Below are positions 1 to 6,801 of a stretch of 8,141 nucleotides of DNA, piece by piece. This DNA is from Candidatus Nealsonbacteria bacterium CG01_land_8_20_14_3_00_12 (lineage in GTDB: Bacteria > Patescibacteriota > Minisyncoccia > Minisyncoccales > PETJ01). Location: positions 1 to 8,141 of the forward strand of contig PETJ01000057.1 in the NCBI GenBank assembly GCA_002781125.1, given 5' to 3'. The position numbers and the translations under genes are program-made. The notes below the pieces were generated by a model that was not told the DNA's origin, searched no databases, and saw only the letters and a list, made by a program, of their open reading frames with translations. Position 1 is the stretch's first letter, and the number at the start of each line of letters is the position of its first letter.

Positions 1-705
1 ATTAATCAACCTCTTCCAATTGCCTCCCTGACCAAACTGATGACGGCTGTGATTGTCTTAGAAAATTATGATTTGGACGCCACCCACCCACCACCCTATA
101 CTTTAATTACTATCTCCAAAGCTGCAGCAAATCAAGAAAATGTCCCCAATTATGGAAACTTAGATAAATATTTAGGAGAAAAATTTAATGTCGAGCAGCT
201 TCTGGATTTAATGCTTGTTTATTCCAGTAATGACGCGGCCTGGGCCCTTTCCGAAGTTATCGAAACTAAAAATTTTGTCGAAAAGATGAACCAAAAAGCC
301 GAAGAATTGGGTTTAGGGAATACTCATTTTGTTAATCCTACCGGCCTCGATCCCGAAAATTTCTATTATCATCCCCCTAATCAAAGTTATTTTAATTATT
401 CAACGGCTCAAGACCTTCTGAAATTAGCTCAGTACATTTCGAAAAATCATCCTTTAATTTTTGAAATCACTCTGAAAAAGGGGCCTTATCCAATTGAAAA
501 TGGGATGGGAGATTTAATCTTGCCTGAAAATCAAACAGGGATAGGATGGAAAACTGGTTATACTGATGAAGCTGGCGGTTGCGCCCTTTTAGTGCTTGGA
601 AAGGAAAATGGAAATGTTCTCTTCAATATAATTTTAGGTACCGAATCCCAAGAAGCTCGGATTAGAGAAATGCAAAAACTAATTAACTATCAAGCTCGCC
701 TATAG
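1..705 (+). CDS. D-alanyl-D-alanine carboxypeptidase, S11 family (5' truncated)
   Basis: Penicillin-binding-type serine peptidase that removes the terminal D-Ala from peptidoglycan pentapeptides outside the cytoplasmic membrane. The frame is open from base 1, so the N-terminus, including any signal peptide or membrane anchor, lies upstream of the window; the ATG at 40 is internal because the active-site motif precedes it. All three family motifs are present: SLTK (bases 25-36, catalytic Ser and Lys), SSN (223-231) and KTG (550-558, within GWKTGYT). About 49 residues follow KTG, with no C-terminal PBP5-like domain and no C-terminal helix, so only the catalytic domain is visible. The next gene is mraY, 129 bp downstream, consistent with a wall-synthesis cluster. 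The stop TAG (703-705) lies inside a small palindrome. An endopeptidase of the same fold (PBP7-like) cannot be excluded. Confidence 0.9.
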   Translation: MNQPLPIASLTKLMTAVIVLENYDLDATHPPPYTLITISKAAANQENVPNYGNLDKYLGEKFNVEQLLDLMLVYSSNDAAWALSEVIETKNFVEKMNQKAEELGLGNTHFVNPTGLDPENFYYHPPNQSYFNYSTAQDLLKLAQYISKNHPLIFEITLKKGPYPIENGMGDLILPENQTGIGWKTGYTDEAGGCALLVLGKENGNVLFNIILGTESQEARIREMQKLINYQARL

Positions 706-710
706 CGAGC
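694..710. repeat. Small palindrome over the carboxypeptidase stop codon
   Basis: Arm GCTCGC (694-699), 5-base loop, then its exact reverse complement (705-710). It overlaps the TAG stop at 703-705. No T-run follows, so it is not a typical intrinsic terminator. It is the only palindrome of the set with a loop longer than three bases. Confidence 0.6.
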
Positions 711-720
711 GAAGATAATC

Positions 721-739
721 AATGAGTCTTCGACTCATT
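721..739. repeat. Triloop palindrome, AATGARTC family
   Basis: Perfect 8-bp arms, AATGAGTC and GACTCATT, around the loop TTC. A sister copy lies at 5554-5572 in the opposite orientation. It differs at one base in each arm, and the two differences are complementary, so pairing is kept. Confidence 0.8.
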
Positions 740-759
740 TCAATCTGCGATAAATGTTC

Positions 760-778
760 AATGAATTAAAAATTCATT
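760..778. repeat. Triloop palindrome, AATGAATT arms
   Basis: Perfect 8-bp arms, AATGAATT and AATTCATT, around the loop AAA. It is similar in sequence and size to the neighbouring palindrome at 721-739 and lies in the same intergenic region. Confidence 0.7.
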
Positions 779-788
779 TCACACCTTC

Positions 789-827
789 GATAAATCTTCG
801 ATTTATCTTGTTCTTCGATTTATCTTG
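789..827. repeat. Triloop palindrome plus direct repeat upstream of mraY
   Basis: Perfect 8-bp arms GATAAATC (789-796) and GATTTATC (800-807) around TTC. The right half recurs once more as a 15-base direct repeat, CTTCGATTTATCTTG, at 796-810 and 813-827. A related palindrome inside murL (2264-2282) differs by one complementary pair of bases. No promoter or ribosome-binding site is recognisable in this stretch, although it directly precedes mraY. Confidence 0.75.
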
Positions 828-834
828 ATAATCT

Positions 835-1914
835 ATGACACTTTTTACATTTAATGTTATTCGGCTCCTGAGTATTGCCGCTTTGACAGCCGGAATTGCT
901 TTTTTATTGGCTCCGGTTTTAATCAAGTTCTTGCACAAAATCAAATTTTGGAAAAAAGAGGCCAGAAAAAAAACAATTACCGGAGAAGAGGCAGGGGTTT
1001 TTTATTCTTTGCATAAAGAAAGAGAGGTAACTGTTCCTCGGGGTGGGGGAGTACTGATTTGGGTTTCGGTTTTAATTGTTATTTTTTTATTTTTTGGATT
1101 ATCTTATTTTTCTCATCCCTGGTGGTTTAAAAAATTAAATTTTTTATCCAGGAGTGAAACTTGGTTACCTTTGTTTACTTTATTGGTGGCAGCAATTGTT
1201 GGATTGGTTGATGATTTTTTACAGGTTACCGGTAAAGGAAAATATGTTGGAGGGGGAATGGAGTTTACCAGAAGATTATTAATTGTCATTCTGATTGGTT
1301 TAATTGGGGGTCTCTGGTTTTATTACAAATTGGATTGGGATACTATTCATATTCCTTTAATTTTTAATTTTCCGGCGGGAATTGATATTTCGCTCGGGCT
1401 CTGGATAATCCCTCTTTTTATTTTAGTAATGGTTGCCTCTTGGTCAGGTGGAGTAATTGATGGTTTAGATGGTTTATCTGGCGGTGTTTTTGCCTCAATT
1501 TTTGGTGCCTTTTCTATCATTGCTTTTTCCCAGGGAAAAGCTGATTTGGCTACTTTTTGTGCTGCGATTTTGGGTACTCTTTTTGCTTTTTTATGGTTCA
1601 ATATTCCTCCAGCCAGATTTTATATGGGAGAAACCGGAATTTTAGCCCTGACCTCAACCATGGCCGTGGTTTCGTTTCTAACCGATTCAGTGGTAGTTTT
1701 GCCAATTATTGCCGGGGTAATGGTAATGGAAGTTGGTTCAATAATTTTGCAGTTGTTATCTAAAAAGTTTCTTCTGAAAAAAATCTGGCTTTCCACCCCA
1801 ATTCACCATCATTTTGAAGCCCGTAGTTGGCCAGTTTATCAGGTGACAATGCGCTTTTGGTTAATCAGTATCATTTTTGCTATTTTGGGAGTAGCCATCA
1901 GGCTTCTTGGATAA
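835..1914 (+). CDS. mraY: Phospho-N-acetylmuramoyl-pentapeptide transferase (MraY)
   Basis: Integral membrane enzyme that transfers phospho-MurNAc-pentapeptide from UDP to undecaprenyl phosphate, giving lipid I. The 359-residue length is normal and about ten hydrophobic segments are visible. Motifs in order: VPRGGG (67-72, equivalent to the usual TPTMGG), VDD (D126, D127, the aspartate pair), IDGLDGL (D209, D212, equivalent to NLTDGLDGL), MGETG (264-268) and PIHHHFE (H324-H326). Two deviations stand out: the metal-binding Asp of the usual MGDxGS motif is Glu266, and the Asn-Leu-Thr before DGLDGL is replaced by Gly-Val-Ile. The reading frame is intact and hydrophobicity is normal, so this looks like a divergent but working branch rather than a decayed gene. 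The ATG at 835 has no clear ribosome-binding site. The stop codon is 2 bp from the murL start, implying translational coupling. WecA/TagO-type transferases share the fold, but the HHHFE motif and gene context favour MraY. Confidence 0.95.
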   Translation: MTLFTFNVIRLLSIAALTAGIAFLLAPVLIKFLHKIKFWKKEARKKTITGEEAGVFYSLHKEREVTVPRGGGVLIWVSVLIVIFLFFGLSYFSHPWWFKKLNFLSRSETWLPLFTLLVAAIVGLVDDFLQVTGKGKYVGGGMEFTRRLLIVILIGLIGGLWFYYKLDWDTIHIPLIFNFPAGIDISLGLWIIPLFILVMVASWSGGVIDGLDGLSGGVFASIFGAFSIIAFSQGKADLATFCAAILGTLFAFLWFNIPPARFYMGETGILALTSTMAVVSFLTDSVVVLPIIAGVMVMEVGSIILQLLSKKFLLKKIWLSTPIHHHFEARSWPVYQVTMRFWLISIIFAILGVAIRLLG

Positions 1915-1916
1915 AT

Positions 1917-3434
1917 ATGCAATATAAAGAATTGAGGGAAAAATATCCAAAGTTTGTTTACGAAAAATACTCTTATCGAATCTCTGGCGCTAAGCCACGA
2001 AGTGGCCGCGCCACTTTTAGTGGTAATAATTTAGAGATTTTTTTTGATTTTTTGATAGAACCCGATATAAAATTTCAACCCAAAATTGTTATAGAAAATA
2101 TCCCCCAAAAATTATCGATATTGGATATCGATAGATTTGAGAATTTGATTTTTCATTTGGGATTAATGGAAATTCCCAGTTATTGGAAGGCAACTTGCTC
2201 ACCAGAAATTTTAATTAAAGCTGGCCCCCTGTCGATGAAGGCTTCGCCTTCATCTCCATCTTCGACAAATCTTCGATTTGTCTCGATAAACAAAGAACAA
2301 ATCGACTGGTGGAAAGATTTAATAATTAAAGGTATGGGCCAATTTTTTTACGAAAACAAAATCAATTTCACTCACCCTAACTTCTTTAAAATCATATCGC
2401 CGACTCCCGAACAAAATTGGTCAAGAACTGTTCTTGACCAATCTAATGATAAGGTTTTGGTACCGGTGGGGGGAGGGAAGGATTCGGTAGTGACTTTAGA
2501 GTTATTAAAGAAAGCAGGAAAACAGATTAGATGTTTTTCTTTGAATCCGACCGAAGCCGCTTTGAAAATAATGAAACTGGCCGGCTGCAAAAGACCTCTT
2601 ATTGTGCGACGAGAAATTGATGAAAAGTTATTAGAATTAAATCGCCAAGGGTTTTTAAATGGCCACACGCCATTTTCAGCTTATTTAGCTTTTTTAAGTG
2701 TTTTAGTGGCAACAATTTTTGGCCAAAGGTATATTGCTTTTTCAAATGAGCGGAGTTCAAACGAGGGAAATGTAAAATACTTGGGAAAGGTTATCAATCA
2801 TCAGTGGTCGAAAAGTTTTGAATTTGAGCAAAAATTCAGAAAATATTCTAAAAAATATTTAACCCCCTCACCAAAATTTGGTGGGGGGTTAGAGTATTTC
2901 AGTTTTTTGCGACCTTTATATGAGATTCAAATTGCCAAATTGTTTTCGAAATATCCGAAGTATTTCAATGCCTTTTTAAGCTGTAATGTCGCTTATCAGA
3001 CAGTTTCTGGAACTAAATTACCTGCCAAAAAATGGTGTGGAAATTGCTCAAAATGCCTATTTGTTTTTACTATTTTATACCCTTTTGTTGAAGAAAAAAA
3101 ATTGATTAAAATCTGGGGCAGAAATCTTTTTGAAAATAAAAATTTATTGCCAATAATGCAAGAATTAATCGGCGAGAGAAAATTTAAACCTTTTGAATGC
3201 GTCGGCACTGAAAAAGAAAGCCTCATCGCCTTCTATCTAAGTTGGAAAAAGGCTAAAAGTGGTCAAGAACTGTTCTTGACCAAATTGCCGTTTTTATTAA
3301 GGTATTTCGAAGAGAAAATTATGCCAAAATATCTGAATTTAGAGAAAGAGTCGAAAAAACTAATGAGTTCGTGGAATGCGCAAAATAATTCACCGAAAGA
3401 TTTCGAAAAAATATTAAAAACTTCGCTATTATAA
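1917..3434 (+). CDS. murL: UDP-MurNAc-L-Ala-L-Glu epimerase (MurL family), with palindrome insertions
   Basis: MurL, described in Xanthomonas, converts the terminal L-Glu of UDP-MurNAc-L-Ala-L-Glu to D-Glu using ATP and Mg2+, replacing the need for a glutamate racemase. Supporting motifs, numbered from the ATG at 1917: a PP-loop-like VPVGGGKDS (GGGKDS 185-190), SNERSSNEGN (276-285), a conserved stretch around SKSFEFEQKF, and a CGNCSKC cluster (C374, C377, C380). The frame is also open upstream to 1827, but that would overlap mraY by 88 bp; the ATG at 1917, 2 bp after the mraY stop, is preferred. At 505 residues it appears long for the family as I remember it. Several low-complexity segments coincide exactly with DNA palindromes (near residues 25-37, 102-125, 167-175, 314-325, 448-456) and together account for about 55-60 residues. 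None interrupts the motifs listed. It is expected to be cytoplasmic and to act just after the MurD-type ligase encoded downstream. The epimerase assignment rests on recalled family motifs. Confidence 0.85.
   Translation: MQYKELREKYPKFVYEKYSYRISGAKPRSGRATFSGNNLEIFFDFLIEPDIKFQPKIVIENIPQKLSILDIDRFENLIFHLGLMEIPSYWKATCSPEILIKAGPLSMKASPSSPSSTNLRFVSINKEQIDWWKDLIIKGMGQFFYENKINFTHPNFFKIISPTPEQNWSRTVLDQSNDKVLVPVGGGKDSVVTLELLKKAGKQIRCFSLNPTEAALKIMKLAGCKRPLIVRREIDEKLLELNRQGFLNGHTPFSAYLAFLSVLVATIFGQRYIAFSNERSSNEGNVKYLGKVINHQWSKSFEFEQKFRKYSKKYLTPSPKFGGGLEYFSFLRPLYEIQIAKLFSKYPKYFNAFLSCNVAYQTVSGTKLPAKKWCGNCSKCLFVFTILYPFVEEKKLIKIWGRNLFENKNLLPIMQELIGERKFKPFECVGTEKESLIAFYLSWKKAKSGQELFLTKLPFLLRYFEEKIMPKYLNLEKESKKLMSSWNAQNNSPKDFEKILKTSLL
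1994..2023. repeat. Chained small palindromes within murL
   Basis: Three overlapping triloop hairpins are possible: GCCAC-GAA-GTGGC (1994-2006), GTGGC-CGC-GCCAC (2002-2014) and CCACT-TTT-AGTGG (2011-2023). They encode the segment AKPRSGRATFSG between SYRIS and NNLEIFF. The segment is GC-richer than its flanks and looks inserted. Confidence 0.65.
2113..2133. repeat. Triloop palindrome within murL, TATCGATAT arms
   Basis: Perfect 9-bp arms, TATCGATAT and ATATCGATA, around TGG. The encoded KLSILDIDRF fits the protein without an obvious extra segment, so this copy may be a chance or substitution product rather than an insertion. Confidence 0.5.
2234..2254. repeat. Triloop palindrome within murL, GATGAAGGC family
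   Basis: Perfect 9-bp arms, GATGAAGGC and GCCTTCATC, around TTC. The same arm sequence with the same flanks (GTC before, TCCA after) recurs at 6742-6764 at the end of ftsW with the loop TAC. It encodes part of a Ser/Pro-rich stretch (MKASPSSPSS). Confidence 0.8.
2264..2282. repeat. Triloop palindrome within murL, GAYAAATC family
   Basis: Perfect 8-bp arms, GACAAATC and GATTTGTC, around TTC. It is a sister of 789-807; the two differ by a complementary T-to-C and A-to-G pair. It lies 9 bp after the palindrome at 2234-2254, and together they make up an apparent insertion of about 21 codons between IKAG and NKEQIDWW. Confidence 0.8.
2416..2442. repeat. Triloop palindrome within murL, TGGTCAAGAA family, copy 1
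   Basis: Perfect 12-bp arms (ATTGGTCAAGAA and its reverse complement) around CTG, 27 bp in total. Translated as NWSRTVLDQS just before the PP-loop. Its central 24 bases are identical to those of copy 2 (3260-3282 plus one base). Confidence 0.9.
2860..2891. repeat. Long palindrome with one bulge within murL
   Basis: Left arm TAACCCCC, a single bulged T (2868), CACCAA; loop AAT (2875-2877); right arm TTGGTG then GGGGGTTA. Fourteen base pairs in all. Encodes TPSPKFGGGL. Bases 2873-2888 (AAAATTTGGTGGGGGG) recur at 5990-6005 in ftsW in the same frame, giving KFGGG in both proteins. Confidence 0.8.
3260..3282. repeat. Triloop palindrome within murL, TGGTCAAGAA family, copy 2
   Basis: Perfect 10-bp arms (TGGTCAAGAA and its reverse complement) around CTG. 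Same sequence as copy 1 but shifted one base relative to the reading frame, so it is translated as SGQELFLTK rather than WSRTVLDQ. Confidence 0.9.
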
Positions 3435-3439
3435 AAATT

Positions 3440-4195
3440 ATGAAAGTTACAGCAATTAAAACCTGTAAAATTACAACTAAAAACAAGAGCTTATATAAAA
3501 TTTTAGACAAATATGTCCCTGCGTTAAAAGAGGGTTCTGTCCTTGTTGTAACTTCAAAAATTATAGCAATATGCGAAGGAAGGCTGGTAAAAATAGGCAA
3601 AATAGAAAAAGACACGTTGATAAAGAAGGAAGCTGACTACTTTTTGCCTTCGGAAATAAATCCTTATCATTTTTCTCTCGCAATTAAAAATAACATACTT
3701 GCTGCCTCAGCCGGCATTGATGAATCAAATGGGAATGGATATCATATTCTTTGGCCAAAAAATCCCCAAAAAACCGCTAATGGGATAAGACGATATCTAG
3801 TAAAAAGATTCTCTCTCACGCAGGTGGGCGTAATTATCACGGATAGTAAAACCACTCCCCAACGTTGGGGCGTAACAGGAATAGCAATTGCTCATAGTGG
3901 CTTTAAAGCTCTTAATGACTATCGGGGAAAACCTGATATTTTTGGAAGGAAATTTAAAGCGACCCAGGTAAGTGTGATGGACGGTCTTGCCGCAACTGCT
4001 GTGTTAGTTATGGGAGAAGGCAGGGAACAAACTCCTCTTGCCATTGTTGAAGATATTCCATTTGTAAGATTCCAACAAAGAGATCCTACTAAAAAAGAGT
4101 TGCAAGAATTAAAAATTTCTCTTGCCGAAGATTTATACGCTCCCTTACTCACAAGCGTCCAGTGGAGAAAGGGAGAAGGAGGATATAATTTATAA
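3440..4195 (+). CDS. CofE-like protein (F420-0:L-glutamate ligase family)
   Basis: Matches the CofE family, whose characterised members attach gamma-linked L-glutamate to coenzyme F420-0 using GTP and a divalent metal. Visible family features: GSVLVVTSKIIAICEGR (32-48, equivalent to the GDVLVVAQKIVSKAEGR type), an Asp at 135 within VIITDSKTT, RWGVTGIAIAHSGF, DYRG (160-163), DIFGRKFK, and DGLAATAVLVMGEG followed by TPLAIVED. The 251-residue length is that of a stand-alone CofE. The usual SDTFGRPWR motif is replaced by TDSKTTPQRWG, so the acceptor probably differs. No F420 gene is visible in the window; instead the gene follows murL by 5 bp and precedes murD. A glutamate-linked job in wall or precursor metabolism is therefore plausible but is inference. 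The ATG at 3440 has no clear ribosome-binding site, suggesting coupling to murL. A strong hairpin terminator follows. Unlike its neighbours murL, murD and ftsW, this gene has no triloop palindromes that I could find. Confidence 0.8.
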   Translation: MKVTAIKTCKITTKNKSLYKILDKYVPALKEGSVLVVTSKIIAICEGRLVKIGKIEKDTLIKKEADYFLPSEINPYHFSLAIKNNILAASAGIDESNGNGYHILWPKNPQKTANGIRRYLVKRFSLTQVGVIITDSKTTPQRWGVTGIAIAHSGFKALNDYRGKPDIFGRKFKATQVSVMDGLAATAVLVMGEGREQTPLAIVEDIPFVRFQQRDPTKKELQELKISLAEDLYAPLLTSVQWRKGEGGYNL

Positions 4196-4218
4196 ATAGA
4201 CAATTTTCTAAATGAACC

Positions 4219-4250
4219 CCGTTAAGAATATTTCATTTTTAACGGTTTTT
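4219..4250 (+). terminator. Rho-independent terminator after the CofE-like gene
   Basis: Stem CCGTTAAGAAT (4219-4229) pairs with ATTTTTAACGG (4235-4245), 11 bp including one G-T, with a 5-base loop ATTTC, followed directly by TTTTT (4246-4250). It would end the transcript of the first four genes. It sits only 18 bases before the murD ATG, so murD depends on read-through or on a promoter that overlaps it. Confidence 0.75.
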
Positions 4251-4268
4251 ATGTTATTTTAATATAAA

Positions 4269-5558
4269 ATGAAGTTAAATGAATTGAAAAATGAAAAAAT
4301 CTTGATTTTGGGGTTTGGCCGAGAGGGAATGGATAATTTTAGGTTTTTGAGGAAGATTTTTCCGGAGAAGGTTTTGGGAGTAGGGGACCAGAAAAAAATC
4401 CAAATTCCAAAATCCAAATTTCAAAAAGTTAAACTACACCTAGGTAAAAATTATCTTAAGGCGCTGAAAGATTATGATGTGATAATTAAGTCGCCGGGGA
4501 TTCCATTTAAGATTTTACCAAAATCAGTCCTGTCTAAAGTTACCACTCAGACGGAGATTTTTTTTGAGAATTGTCCGGGGAAAATTGTTGGAATTACGGG
4601 AACAAAAGGGAAAAGCACCACCGCTTCAATGATTTATGAAATTTTGAAGGCGGGAGGAATAAGGGCACATTTAGTTGGCAATATTGGGAAGCCAGTATTG
4701 AATCTTTTATTTTCAGCTACTCCCAAAGATGTTTATGTTTATGAATTGTCCAGCCATCAGTTATATAACCTCAAAAAATCACCTCAGATTGCCATTTTTT
4801 TGAATATTTACCCTGAACACCTCGATTATTACAAAAATTTCAGAGAGTATGTAAGGGCTAAGGCTAATATTGCCCGTTATCAAACAAAAGACGATTATTT
4901 AGTTTTTAACTCCGGAGATAAATTGGTTAGAGAAATTGCTAAAAAGTCAAAAGCTAAAAAAATTCCAATTAAGGGAAAATATTATTCATTAAATAAAGCA
5001 GCGGCTAAAGCGGTTGGTAAAATTTTTAAAATTCCTCAAAAGATTATTCAAAAAGCAATTAGAGAATTTAAACCTTTGCCTCATAGATTAGAATTGGTCG
5101 GTAATTATAAGAGAATCACTTTTTACAATGACGCCTTATCGACTATCCCCGAAACTGCCATTTTAGCAATGGAGGCCCTGGGAAAGCGAGTTCAGACGAT
5201 TTTTCTTGGCGGCTTTGATAGAAAAATCAATTTTAAAAAATTAGCTAAATTTATTTTGAAAAATAAAAATATTAAAAATCTAATTTTGTTCCCGACTACT
5301 GGAGAGAAAATCTGGAAAGAAATCCTCAAACTTAACACGGGTCTGACCCGTGTTAAATTGCCTAAACATTTTTTTGTTAATAATATGCCAGAAGCGGTAA
5401 AACTTGCTTATGAAAATACCCAAAAAGGAAAAATCTGTTTGCTCTCTTGCGCTTCAACTAGTTTCAGTATTTTCCGAGATTACAAAGAAAAAGGGAATTT
5501 ATTTAAAAAATACGTTAAAAAGCAAGGTGAATCGAAGATTCATCGAAGCTCGAAATGA
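4269..5558 (+). CDS. murD: UDP-MurNAc-L-alanine:glutamate ligase (MurD, probably MurD2-like)
   Basis: Cytoplasmic ATP-dependent Mur ligase that adds glutamate to UDP-MurNAc-L-Ala. Three-domain layout: N-terminal nucleotide-type fold (ILILGFGREG, IIKSPGIP), central ATPase domain with P-loop GTKGKST (111-117), YELSSHQL and NIYPEHLDYY, then C-terminal domain with PHRLELVGNY, NDALST (287-292), TIFLGGFDR and LLSCASTSFSIFRDYKEKG. 429 residues is close to normal for MurD. The usual DSKATN motif, which helps bind D-Glu, is replaced by DALSTI. With murL upstream, this suggests an L-Glu-adding MurD2-type enzyme; that step is inference. The ATG at 4269 begins the expected MKLNELKNEKILILGFG, but has no ribosome-binding site. 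Two apparent insertions are visible: a 14-base tandem repeat giving KIQIPKSKFQ (residues 42-53) and a palindrome giving LNTGLTRVKL (near 355-364). The C-terminal tail ESKIHRSSK is encoded by palindromes that also hold the stop codon. Confidence 0.93.
   Translation: MKLNELKNEKILILGFGREGMDNFRFLRKIFPEKVLGVGDQKKIQIPKSKFQKVKLHLGKNYLKALKDYDVIIKSPGIPFKILPKSVLSKVTTQTEIFFENCPGKIVGITGTKGKSTTASMIYEILKAGGIRAHLVGNIGKPVLNLLFSATPKDVYVYELSSHQLYNLKKSPQIAIFLNIYPEHLDYYKNFREYVRAKANIARYQTKDDYLVFNSGDKLVREIAKKSKAKKIPIKGKYYSLNKAAAKAVGKIFKIPQKIIQKAIREFKPLPHRLELVGNYKRITFYNDALSTIPETAILAMEALGKRVQTIFLGGFDRKINFKKLAKFILKNKNIKNLILFPTTGEKIWKEILKLNTGLTRVKLPKHFFVNNMPEAVKLAYENTQKGKICLLSCASTSFSIFRDYKEKGNLFKKYVKKQGESKIHRSSK
4395..4426. 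repeat. 14-base tandem repeat inside murD
   Basis: AAAATCCAAATT occurs at 4395-4406 and again at 4409-4420, period 14, with a third partial start (AAAA at 4423). It encodes KIQIPKSKFQ within the N-terminal domain, in a place where MurD proteins normally have no such lysine/isoleucine-rich run. Confidence 0.65.
5332..5356. repeat. Triloop palindrome within murD
   Basis: Perfect 11-bp arms, TTAACACGGGT and ACCCGTGTTAA, around the loop CTG, the same loop as the TGGTCAAGAA pair in murL. Encodes LNTGLTRVK in the C-terminal domain without breaking the frame. Confidence 0.85.
5528..5542. repeat. Short triloop palindrome at the murD 3' end
   Basis: Arms TGAATC and GATTCA around GAA; extendable to 8 bp (5526-5544) with one G-T pair. 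It lies 11 bp before a closely related palindrome at 5554-5572. Confidence 0.7.
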
Positions 5559-5572
5559 ATCGAAGATTCATT
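5554..5572. repeat. Triloop palindrome over the murD stop codon, AATGARTC family
   Basis: Perfect 8-bp arms, AATGAATC and GATTCATT, around GAA. Read on the other strand it matches 721-739 apart from one complementary pair of changes. The murD stop TGA (5556-5558) lies in its left arm and a possible ftsW TTG start (5571) in its right arm. Confidence 0.85.
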
Positions 5573-5585
5573 GAGCAACTTGCCC

Positions 5586-6746
5586 ATGAAAAAACATCCT
5601 GATTATATTTTGATAGGGGTAGTAGTTATTTTAATAATTTTGGGAATTTTGATTTTGGCTAGTGTTTCAGCCCCTCTTTCCCAGCAAAGATTTGGAAATA
5701 CTTATTATTTTTTAAATCATCAATTATTATTTGGGTTATTACCAGGAATTTTATTAGCTTTTTTAGTTTTTAAAATTCGCTTAGATTTTTTTAAAAAATG
5801 GGCTTCCCCCTTACTTTTAATAAACCTAATCTTACTAGCAATGGTTTTTTTGCCTAAAATTGGTTACAGCGCTGGAGGAGCCGCTCGTTGGCTATCTCTC
5901 GGTCCCATCTCTTTTCAACCTTCAGAATTTTTGAAATTAACTTCCATTCTTTATTTTGCTGCCTGGCTGACTAGCAGAACCGGGGCCAAAAAATTTGGTG
6001 GGGGGCGGACCGAAAAAGGCTACAACCCTCCCACCGCCCTCCCGCCGAAGGCGGGCCCCTCGTTCGGCCAAACATTTGTTGCCTTTTTAATAGTTATTGG
6101 ATTAATCAGCTCACTTTTAATTTTTCAGCCAGATATTAGCACTTTGGGAATAATTGTCTTGGTAGCTACTTTAATGTATTTTTTAGCCGAGACGCCTTTA
6201 TGGCACAGTATTTTATTCGTTTTACTTGGAGCCGGGGGATTGTTAACATTAATTAAACTCGCTCCTTATCGAGCAGCTCGTCTTTTAGTTTTTTTAAAAC
6301 CGGAAATCGACCCAATGGGAATTGGTTACCAAATAAAGCAGGCCTTGATTGCCGTAGGCTCGGGAGGGATTTCTGGGTTGGGTCTTGGGATGTCCCAACA
6401 AAGACTGGGTTTTTTACCCCAGTCGATATCGGATTCAATTTTTGCTATTTTGGCTGAAGAGACTGGATTTATTGGCTGCCTGATATTAATCTTTCTTTTT
6501 TTAATCTTTTTGTGGCGGGGATTTGAAATTGCCAAAGTCAGCCAGAATAAATTTTCTCAACTAGCAGCCCTAGGCATCACTTCTTGGATTACTCTTCAGG
6601 CTCTTACCAACATTGGTTCAATGATAGGAATTTTACCCCTGACTGGAATTCCTTTGCCATTTATCAGTTATGGCGGCTCAGCCTTGGTTAGCGAATTAGC
6701 TGGGGTAGGAATTTTATTAAATATTTCAAAACAAATAAGTCGATGA
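5586..6746 (+). CDS. ftsW: Septal peptidoglycan glycosyltransferase FtsW, with GC-rich loop insertion
   Basis: SEDS-family membrane enzyme that polymerises lipid II at the division site together with a class B penicillin-binding protein. The ATG at 5586 begins MKKHPDYILIG, which fits the family; an in-frame TTG at 5571 would add five residues but lies inside a palindrome. From the ATG it is 386 residues. Visible features: many hydrophobic helices, GGAARWLSLGPISFQPSE, QPDIST, LGMSQQRLGFLPQSISDSIFA with the expected catalytic Asp283, AEETGFIG, and the C-terminal PLTGIPLPFISYGGSA. The LPQSISDSIFA and TNIGSMIGILPLTG stretches favour FtsW over RodA. Residues 131-160, in a loop between helices, form a Gly/Pro-rich segment encoded by DNA that is about 73% GC (44 of 60 bases at 6001-6060) in an AT-rich gene. 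It looks inserted. The stop TGA (6744-6746) lies in a palindrome. Confidence 0.93.
   Translation: MKKHPDYILIGVVVILIILGILILASVSAPLSQQRFGNTYYFLNHQLLFGLLPGILLAFLVFKIRLDFFKKWASPLLLINLILLAMVFLPKIGYSAGGAARWLSLGPISFQPSEFLKLTSILYFAAWLTSRTGAKKFGGGRTEKGYNPPTALPPKAGPSFGQTFVAFLIVIGLISSLLIFQPDISTLGIIVLVATLMYFLAETPLWHSILFVLLGAGGLLTLIKLAPYRAARLLVFLKPEIDPMGIGYQIKQALIAVGSGGISGLGLGMSQQRLGFLPQSISDSIFAILAEETGFIGCLILIFLFLIFLWRGFEIAKVSQNKFSQLAALGITSWITLQALTNIGSMIGILPLTGIPLPFISYGGSALVSELAGVGILLNISKQISR
5990..6055. repeat. GC-rich palindromic insertion within ftsW
   Basis: Begins with the 16-mer AAAATTTGGTGGGGGG (5990-6005), shared with murL 2873-2888, and ends with a perfect triloop palindrome, CCCGCC-GAA-GGCGGG (6041-6055). 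Between them GGGCGG (6003-6008) can pair with CCGCCC (6034-6039), extendable over a G-T pair. Encodes KFGGGRTEKGYNPPTALPPK in a loop region. Confidence 0.75.
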
Positions 6747-6764
6747 AGGCGTACCGCCTTCATC
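6742..6764. repeat. Triloop palindrome over the ftsW stop codon, GATGAAGGC family
   Basis: Perfect 10-bp arms, GATGAAGGCG and CGCCTTCATC, around TAC. It shares arms and flanks with 2234-2254 in murL. The TGA stop of ftsW is in the left arm. No T-run follows immediately (the next is 10 bases on), so a simple terminator is unlikely. Confidence 0.85.
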
Positions 6765-6773
6765 TCCACCTGC

Positions 6774-6794
6774 GTTTTTTATAAGATAAAAAAC
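6774..6794. repeat. AT-rich triloop palindrome upstream of murG
   Basis: Perfect 9-bp arms, GTTTTTTAT and ATAAAAAAC, around AAG. It ends 7 bases before the murG ATG. The T-run forms part of the arm, so it could weakly terminate, but the pairing is nearly all A-T. Confidence 0.65.
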
Positions 6795-6801
6795 TTGATA
6801 T

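Follow-up and report, generated by a model that had tools for sequence, protein, structure and literature searches.

What are the short palindromes that crowd both the gaps and the genes of a murein cluster in Candidatus Nealsonbacteria bacterium CG01_land_8_20_14_3_00_12? The stretch in question, which we call the window, comprises the 8,141 nucleotides of contig PETJ01000057.1, contig 31 of a source genome of 440,920 bases in 71 contigs, rated 79.7% complete. An earlier note on this DNA had proposed that the palindromes form a separate class of 15-32 bp miniature in-gene elements, nearly all with loops of exactly three bases. Our findings support another model, where the main unit is a predicted double hairpin of about 44-61 bp (family A), which has likely spread as non-autonomous mobile DNA, by way of a trans-acting enzyme and without target duplication, into sites just 5' of a motif AWNYRAWGA. 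Its composite anatomy, covarying arms, dispersed copies and head-to-tail arrays, an exact insertion in murL, a near-exact one in ligA and the fixed motif are directly observed.

A composite element among the palindromes

Short palindromes are indeed abundant in the window, and those that the earlier note placed at 721-739, 760-778, 789-807 and 6774-6794 lie exactly there. Perfect palindromes with a loop of three bases number 16, 11 and 9 at arm lengths of at least 6, 7 and 8, respectively, against means of 3.3, 1.2 and 0.23 (maxima 7, 4 and 2) in 60 dinucleotide shuffles of the window. The genome-wide comparison with shuffled controls proposed in that note, carried out on 28% of the genome (21 contigs, 134,688 bases, 125,300 of them readable), gave 39 such palindromes with arms of at least 8 versus 4.8 over 8 shuffles, a palindrome-rich sample; these two comparisons rule out a chance origin. 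The emphasis on triloops was too strong. Among the window palindromes with arms of at least 8 (loops 0-8), 9 of 14 have a three-base loop, and three of the longest (2416-2442, 3260-3282 and 5332-5356) have a one-base centre. In the genome sample, loops of 1 and 2 bases are likewise in excess (15 and 22 vs. about 5), loops of 0, 4 and 5 more weakly so (8, 11 and 9 vs. 5.0, 4.1 and 4.0), and loops of 6-12 occur at about the chance level (3-6 vs. 4.0-5.5).

When the palindromes were printed with their contexts, the pairing of many of them at a fixed spacing, with common unpaired bases around, disclosed one element. Family A consists, in order, of a foot RG[TG]C, hairpin 1, the linker TYC-ACC-TTC, hairpin 2, which varies in length, and TC-GGT; in most copies of the covariation alignment, ACC pairs with GGT over a TTC/TC internal loop. 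A covariance model built from 11 copies, that of murL included, returned 33 matches at E <1e-3 in the source genome sample and 128 in 394 kb from five relatives (its E-values being rough), which after merging of overlaps gave 154 elements, 30 in 125.3 kb of the source genome and 124 in the relatives. The shortest copy measures 26 and the longest 111 (median 54), 140 of the 154 being 44-61 bp long, and the foot is RGTC or RGGC in 113. Hairpin 1, GAWGARNNC plus its complement, has perfect arms in 126 copies; in these the stem is 9 bp in 88 and 8 bp in 26, and the loop has 3 bases in 54, 2 in 51, and 4 or 5 in 16. The sampled triloop palindromes lie within a family A match in 22 of 39 cases (7 of 9 in the window); after masking of the matches, 17 remain where 4.2 are expected, several of them AT-rich and similarly shaped hairpins. 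The notion of a single 15-32 bp class was therefore rejected: 22 of the 39 belong to the composite unit, whose halves the small palindromes are, and the rest are of several types.

The paired structure is maintained across divergent copies. In 123 distinct rows, 94.6% of the cells are paired versus 74.9% after shuffling, with a covariation score of 0.437 versus 0.158, or at most 0.119 when partners are slid along, in an alignment that was fitted to the model structure, which favours pairing; the number of pairs changed on both sides, 17 of 20, was attained in 38 of 500 shuffles and carries little weight. For all five copies tried, folding far better than that of shuffles is predicted on both strands, whether DNA or RNA (z -3.6 to -7.4). 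The perfection of most hairpin 1 arms among copies that differ, together with the tandem arrays, could be attributed to local template switching during replication, which perfects near-palindromes and needs no mobile unit. This would leave the conserved unpaired feet and linkers, the common length and the common downstream motif unaccounted for, and the presence of a whole unit at an otherwise empty site, the exact murL insertion (below), already refutes it as sole cause. We regard such an origin as very improbable indeed; the process may still keep the arms matched.

Insertions in murL and ligA and the motif beside them

Genes are avoided yet not spared by family A. Using crude calls of the longest open reading frames, 55 of the 154 copies (36%) fall within reading frames as against 79% of random placements, the other 99 lying between genes or at gene edges. 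Inside genes both orientations occur (30 and 25). Outside them, 86 copies have a neighbouring gene on both sides, 43 of these copies being co-oriented with both neighbours and 22 opposed to both. Nine host proteins, chosen for naming by Pfam, comprise LigA, UvrC, RecO, a class I tRNA synthetase with leucyl-type domains and a beta-lactamase-superfamily protein in the source genome, UvrB in a relative (G018), and an O-antigen ligase, a tetrahydrofolate dehydrogenase and a spermidine synthase in another (G061).

The copy in murL is the clearest case. The name murL, for the protein encoded at 1917-3431, is a label taken over from the earlier note; this protein has no Pfam match of its own, and its homologues carry PF26298 and PF26299. 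The copy appears as a 19-residue insertion that 12 of 121 homologues (its own and the 120 best of 7,987) share at one codon. At the DNA level, the relative G056 has GGCCCCCT joined to AAATAAAGAACAA, where the source genome has GGCCCCCT, 57 nt and AAACAAAGAACAA; judged from these sequences, the murL copy is an exact 57-nt insertion with no target duplication. Loci readable at the DNA level were 15 of 30 for murL and 19 of 30 for ligA. The murL site is empty in the 14 readable relatives of 29, and the covariance model finds a copy there in none of the 29. In LigA, an insertion of 15 residues (45 nt) accommodates a 44-nt element, oppositely oriented, and is exact to within 1 nt; among the 120 best homologues, 35 carry it at one codon, the source protein included, with the site empty in the 18 readable order relatives of 29 and a match inside ligA in 0 of 29. 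A second element in the same gene (L011 8731-8786) falls in a region that is variable among the relatives aligned. None of 32 loci from other genomes (30 from a scan of the order and two from one of the phylum, low-copy genomes included) matched LigA, MurL or FtsW. Separately, the LigA of two genomes, G098 and G008 (L144, L150), carries a different in-frame stretch with repeated peptides NPKxEIxNPKQIxN, perhaps another in-gene repeat family.

These shared insertion points could also be old, vertically inherited insertions that were lost many times, the identical inserted peptides reflecting constraint on the element. On a tree built without the insert, its presence in MurL requires 8 changes, against a mean of 11.6 and a minimum of 9 in 200 shufflings of the labels, which indicates some inheritance. 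Weighing against this account, the inserts are alike at 17-19 of 19 residues in proteins otherwise 65-99% identical, those of LigA at 14-15 of 15 residues with 71% identity outside the insert, and precise loss would itself need a mechanism of excision. We consider purely vertical descent possible, though on the whole unlikely.

Directly 3' of the element, on bases outside the covariance model, stands the consensus AWNYRAWGA. It was counted in 111 copies ending in NRT, the remaining 43 of the merged elements having been dropped for lack of such an end or for lying too near the end of a locus: A occupies +6 in 108 and a purine +5 in 106, while +4 is T in 66 or C in 19. Within genes, A is found at +6 in 38 of 39 flanks; without the 7 copies that are followed by another copy the figure is 101 of 104; and the four window copies all have R-A at +5/+6. 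The empty MurL site of G056 already reads AAATAAAGA, and therefore the motif belongs to the target. The codon supplying the +6 A encodes Lys or Gln in all 12 occupied MurL sites but in 64 of 109 unoccupied ones (p 0.003), or in 72 of 109 (p 0.01) if all residues with A at the second codon base are counted. The motif also resembles the element's own left end (RGKCGAWGA), the best register matching at 4.32 of 9 bases (4.06 without the 7 copies followed by another) where random sequence gives 2.24 and other registers 2.0-2.9. Base 2 of the element and flank +1 show a T-A or G-Y tendency (59 of 101 vs. 47.8, p 0.0075, one of 30 tests), not significant after correction. A stands at +1 after 36 of 48 GTC elements and 21 of 51 GGC elements, also not significant once corrected.

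Several copies end 2 nt before an ATG, four according to the reading-frame caller and two more by sequence, which the fit of an ATGA start context to the motif would explain. This spacing, like the covariation, the shortage of copies inside genes and the preponderance of co-oriented copies between genes, might be taken to favour a structured RNA with a role in mRNA stability, attenuation or translation, spread by its usefulness. Yet copies inside genes occur in both orientations, their presence or absence is precise at one codon, and the motif holds from +4 to +9 in genes too, so that the start spacing needs no translational role; further, Rfam returned only two tRNAs (E <= 1) from 65,540 bases, the window and seven other contigs, leaving family A unmatched. 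An RNA function as the driver of spread thus appears decidedly improbable.

Distribution among genomes and candidate enzymes

Family A is patchily distributed. Within the order it was matched in 20 of 147 genomes: eight with at least 14 matches (G000, G003, G017, G018, G061, G078, G103 and G114), one with 6, and eleven with 1 or 2. Across the phylum, 5 of 379 genomes gave a match, three belonging to the same order and two others having a single match each. The two scans scored at most 38 and 14 candidates per genome, respectively, with stricter filters that miss weak matches, and these counts are lower bounds. Densities of 0.12-0.51 copies per kb of fetched sequence are biased upward in the relatives, where regions were picked around known hits; by extrapolation the source genome holds about 105 copies. 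Some copies stand in head-to-tail arrays, such as one of four units (L100 6390-6577) and one of three (L110 4995-5140). The relatives and order samples contained no further genome of the source's family, and protein homologues bear names such as Nealsonbacteria, Patescibacteria group bacterium, Paceibacterota and Staskawiczbacteria.

Mobility in trans best explains these data because insertion is precise and free of duplication, the motif is fixed, the unit can fold, both orientations occur and the genomes are affected patchily. From this we infer a mobile element and a protein that acts on it in trans, recognising it when folded. Such an enzyme would join the foldable unit directly 5' of an AWNYRAWGA-type site, with nothing duplicated; the resemblance of the target to the element's left end would give rise to the head-to-tail arrays and to the copies 2 nt before an ATGA start; and in-gene copies may persist because they leave the host frame open and occupy loops that tolerate them. 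Target-duplicating insertion was rejected: nothing adjacent to the element is duplicated above the level of permuted flanks, and the murL junction is exact. On the same grounds family A does not pass for a miniature inverted-repeat transposable element of a DDE transposon, which would have terminal inverted repeats and a target-site duplication.

As for the enzyme, a Y1/HUH (RAYT-like) transposase is our best guess, a tentative one. Y1_Tnp was matched in 79 of the 147 order genomes, namely 7 of the 8 high-copy genomes and 72 of the 139 others (p 0.05). Alternatively, family A might be no more than ordinary REP-type (repetitive extragenic palindromic) elements, moved by a host RAYT transposase as GTAG REPs are. 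Hairpins with 2-3 base loops, the lack of target duplication, the fixed flanking motif, the in-gene copies and the Y1 genes of high-copy genomes are all consistent with this, and a REP survey describes many families with stems of 6-13 bp and loops of 2-3 bases (PMC3733652). On the other hand, none of the 154 copies has a GTAG-like foot and 5 have a CGTC-like one, no copy lies within about 1.5 kb of 23 of the 25 Y1 loci, one high-copy genome has no Y1 match, and the single Y1 gene found in the source genome is flanked by palindromes of another kind (L011 6387-6409 and 7177-7199). That family A is simply one more REP family is conceivable but unlikely.

Several results count against spread by a trans-acting enzyme, and against Y1 in particular. 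The genome with the densest copies, G018, rated 100% complete, is the one that gave no Y1_Tnp match at E <= 0.001; of the 25 Y1 loci, only 2 have an element nearby (about 1.5 kb or less), one of these elements being the ligA copy near the source genome's Y1 gene. Reverse transcriptase (RVT_1; 2 of 8 high-copy vs. 9 of 24 zero-copy genomes) and tyrosine recombinase or phage integrase (6 of 8 vs. 23 of 24) do not track the element and were set aside as candidates, and no mobilising enzyme was found among these three. A guide-like pairing between target and element showed no association at W (p 0.32), no replication-strand bias was detected by GC skew (56 vs. 50), and one of 40 offset combinations in the target-duplication test beat its permutations (5 vs. 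at most 4). Copies are mostly distinct (60 of 61 in G018) and show no recent burst; because most differ, the spread need not be recent. Lastly, near-identical inserts at one codon could also be old insertions lost many times. A bolder version, in which a geneless double hairpin of about 44-61 bp homes by itself, repeatedly entering the same codon of murL and of ligA in different species, in frame, without target duplication and at sites like its own left end, by an enzyme outside the known REP transposases, seems to us rather improbable.

Other palindromes of the window and known hairpin families

The window holds four recognisable family A copies (table 1) and a probable hairpin remnant. That between ftsW and murG contains the ftsW stop codon, the murG ATG starting 2 nt past its end; the minus-strand copy encodes the last residues of murD, whose C-terminus is longer than in most of 16 relatives aligned, and precedes ftsW. 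At 718-742, the plus strand gave no match to the covariance model and the minus strand one at 689-734 only at E 0.092.

Table 1. Family A copies, target motifs and other palindromes of the window (CM, covariance model)
Feature	Position	Strand	Details
Family A, in frame in murL	2231..2287	+	hairpin 1 2234-2254, hairpin 2 2264-2282; CM 69.2 bits, E 1.7e-15 (model member)
Target motif 3' of murL copy, AAACAAAGA, consensus AWNYRAWGA	2288..2296	+	flank count; AAATAAAGA at the unoccupied site of G056
Family A between ftsW and murG	6739..6799	+	hairpin 1 6742-6764, hairpin 2 6774-6794; CM 42.2 bits, E 1.2e-8
Target motif ATATGAAAA (one mismatch to the consensus), which overlaps the murG start codon	6800..6808	+	sequence
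Family A, AT-rich subtype	5521..5575	-	hairpins 5554-5572, 5528-5542; CM 27.5 bits, E 6.1e-5
Family A, AT-rich subtype, upstream of mraY	757..812	+	hairpins 760-778, 789-807; CM 24.2 bits, E 4e-4
Probable lone or decayed hairpin 1, AT-rich subtype	718..742	+	palindrome 721-739; sequence context
12-codon murL insertion with palindromes, not family A	1989..2024	+	alignment of relatives
Type B palindrome ATTGGTCAAGAACtGTTCTTGACCAAT in murL	2416..2442	+	palindrome scan
Type B palindrome, second murL copy	3260..3282	+	the stretch around it has 3-4 more residues than that of 11 of the 12 more distant relatives aligned
Imperfect palindrome AACCCCCTCACCAAAaTTTGGTGGGGGGTT in murL	2861..2890	+	part of repeat I1
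42-nt (14-codon) ftsW insertion with palindrome 6041-6055, not family A	6021..6062	+	missing in P0002 (95% identical)
Palindrome TTAACACGGGTCtGACCCGTGTTAA in murD	5332..5356	+	variable-length region, insertion not clear

The remaining palindromes are separate types: TGGTCAAGAACtGTTCTTGACCA, the imperfect AACCCCCTCACCAAA, the ftsW insert and the 12-codon murL insert. The 12-codon insert is present in the window and in P0121, replaced by a different insert in P0122 and absent from 12 more distant homologues, P0124 not covering the region; the place looks like an insertion hotspot. The type B sequence TGGTCAAGAACtGTTCTTGACCA has five exact and two near copies in the genome, two of them within one gene. 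Palindromes TGTTTAAGGTTnAACCTTAAACA lie on both sides of the only Y1 transposase gene found in the genome (L011 6414-7157, minus strand), and are built like type B, with 11-bp arms and a one-base centre. At 2861-2890, P0121 (98-99% identity) lacks 6 residues, and some more distant relatives have a similar stretch. Thus, at least three unlike palindrome types (2416/3260, 2861 and 6041) share these genes with family A, and a single class, as the earlier note had it, does not describe them. Its observation that reading frames stay open at the in-gene palindromes holds. Its further suggestion that these palindromes are added segments, which it proposed to check by alignment, was borne out for murL (1989-2024, 2231-2287 and 2861-2890) and ftsW (6021-6062), where they match insertions that some close relatives lack; murD 5332-5356 is an exception, showing no clear insertion. 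With that exception, neither of the two results that the note had named as refuting its idea was obtained.

In the window, Pfam supports the naming of mraY (a family 4 glycosyl transferase), murD (a Mur ligase), ftsW and murG (a family 28 glycosyl transferase), and also recognises a D-Ala-D-Ala carboxypeptidase and the start of a class I tRNA synthetase. A gene of the F420-0:gamma-glutamyl ligase family (PF01996; 3440-4192) sits inside the murein cluster, between murL and murD. In some ten or more order genomes, matches to MurD homologues break in two around residue 236, suggesting a further insertion-prone loop.

Small palindromes inside genes are already known from REPs and Rickettsia palindromic elements: the 20-40 bp GTAG and CGTC REPs occur in frame within many genes, notably those of DNA repair (PMC3733652). 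The REPs described there by Di Nocera and colleagues have short loops and stems of 6-13 bp with alternative complementary bases; the CGTC group takes in Rickettsia RPE-4 and RPE-6 and has no known transposase, and Patescibacteria go unnamed in the accessible text (PMC3733652). Our literature search, which did not extend to subscription journals and preprints, found no paper on such elements in Patescibacteria. The broad definition of the REP superfamily, as short palindromes in many dispersed, mainly intergenic copies, covers family A (99 of 154).

Family A shares the style of both REP groups and fails the foot tests of each. Like GTAG REPs, BIMEs and REPINs with their RAYT, it comprises small high-copy hairpins with short loops and covarying stems, mostly intergenic and partly in frame, DNA repair genes included (PMC3733652); unlike them, it lacks the GTAG foot in every copy, does not adjoin Y1 genes, has a fixed motif 3' of the unit, and joins two unlike hairpins head to tail where GTAG REPs have one hairpin or an inverted pair. 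With CGTC REPs it shares an 8-9 bp stem (114 of 126), a short C-rich tail, in-gene copies, the lack of a known dedicated transposase and, in part of its copies, a four-base foot ending in TC (PMC3733652). A CGTC, TGTC or CCTC foot is, however, found in only 5 of its copies, its loops are mostly of 2-3 bases against the 4-5 reported there for CGTC REPs, its stem usually starts GAWGA, and it has a second hairpin and belongs to another phylum. The ends of IS200/IS605 elements, which move by Y1 transposition, work alike, with terminal hairpins, no target duplication and a fixed adjacent target (see PMC6006769), whereas family A has neither an internal transposase gene nor a strand bias by GC skew.

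Nearest in shape are the mitochondrial hairpin elements DHE and RHE (PMC2800124, PMC2670323), with one to three hairpin units, sometimes in tandem, between and inside genes, and thought to be mobile (PMC2800124). They belong to eukaryote organelles, and the comparison is one of descriptions. We know of no target motif like AWNYRAWGA for them. Described likewise, the larger Rickettsia palindromic elements (RPE-1 and others) also place palindromic DNA in frame inside genes; according to the earlier note, these exceed 100 bp.

Patescibacteria have small genomes, yet in one of their orders some lineages carry such elements at densities reaching one per 2 kb of fetched sequence, and some copies lie inside housekeeping and DNA repair genes. 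The insertions in MurL and LigA show a route by which 15-19 residues of DNA rather than protein origin enter a protein. Should family A prove mobile, it would count as REP-like and come with an insertion rule that can be read, namely a defined unit, an exact junction and a target motif, and this rule may offer a way to its enzyme.

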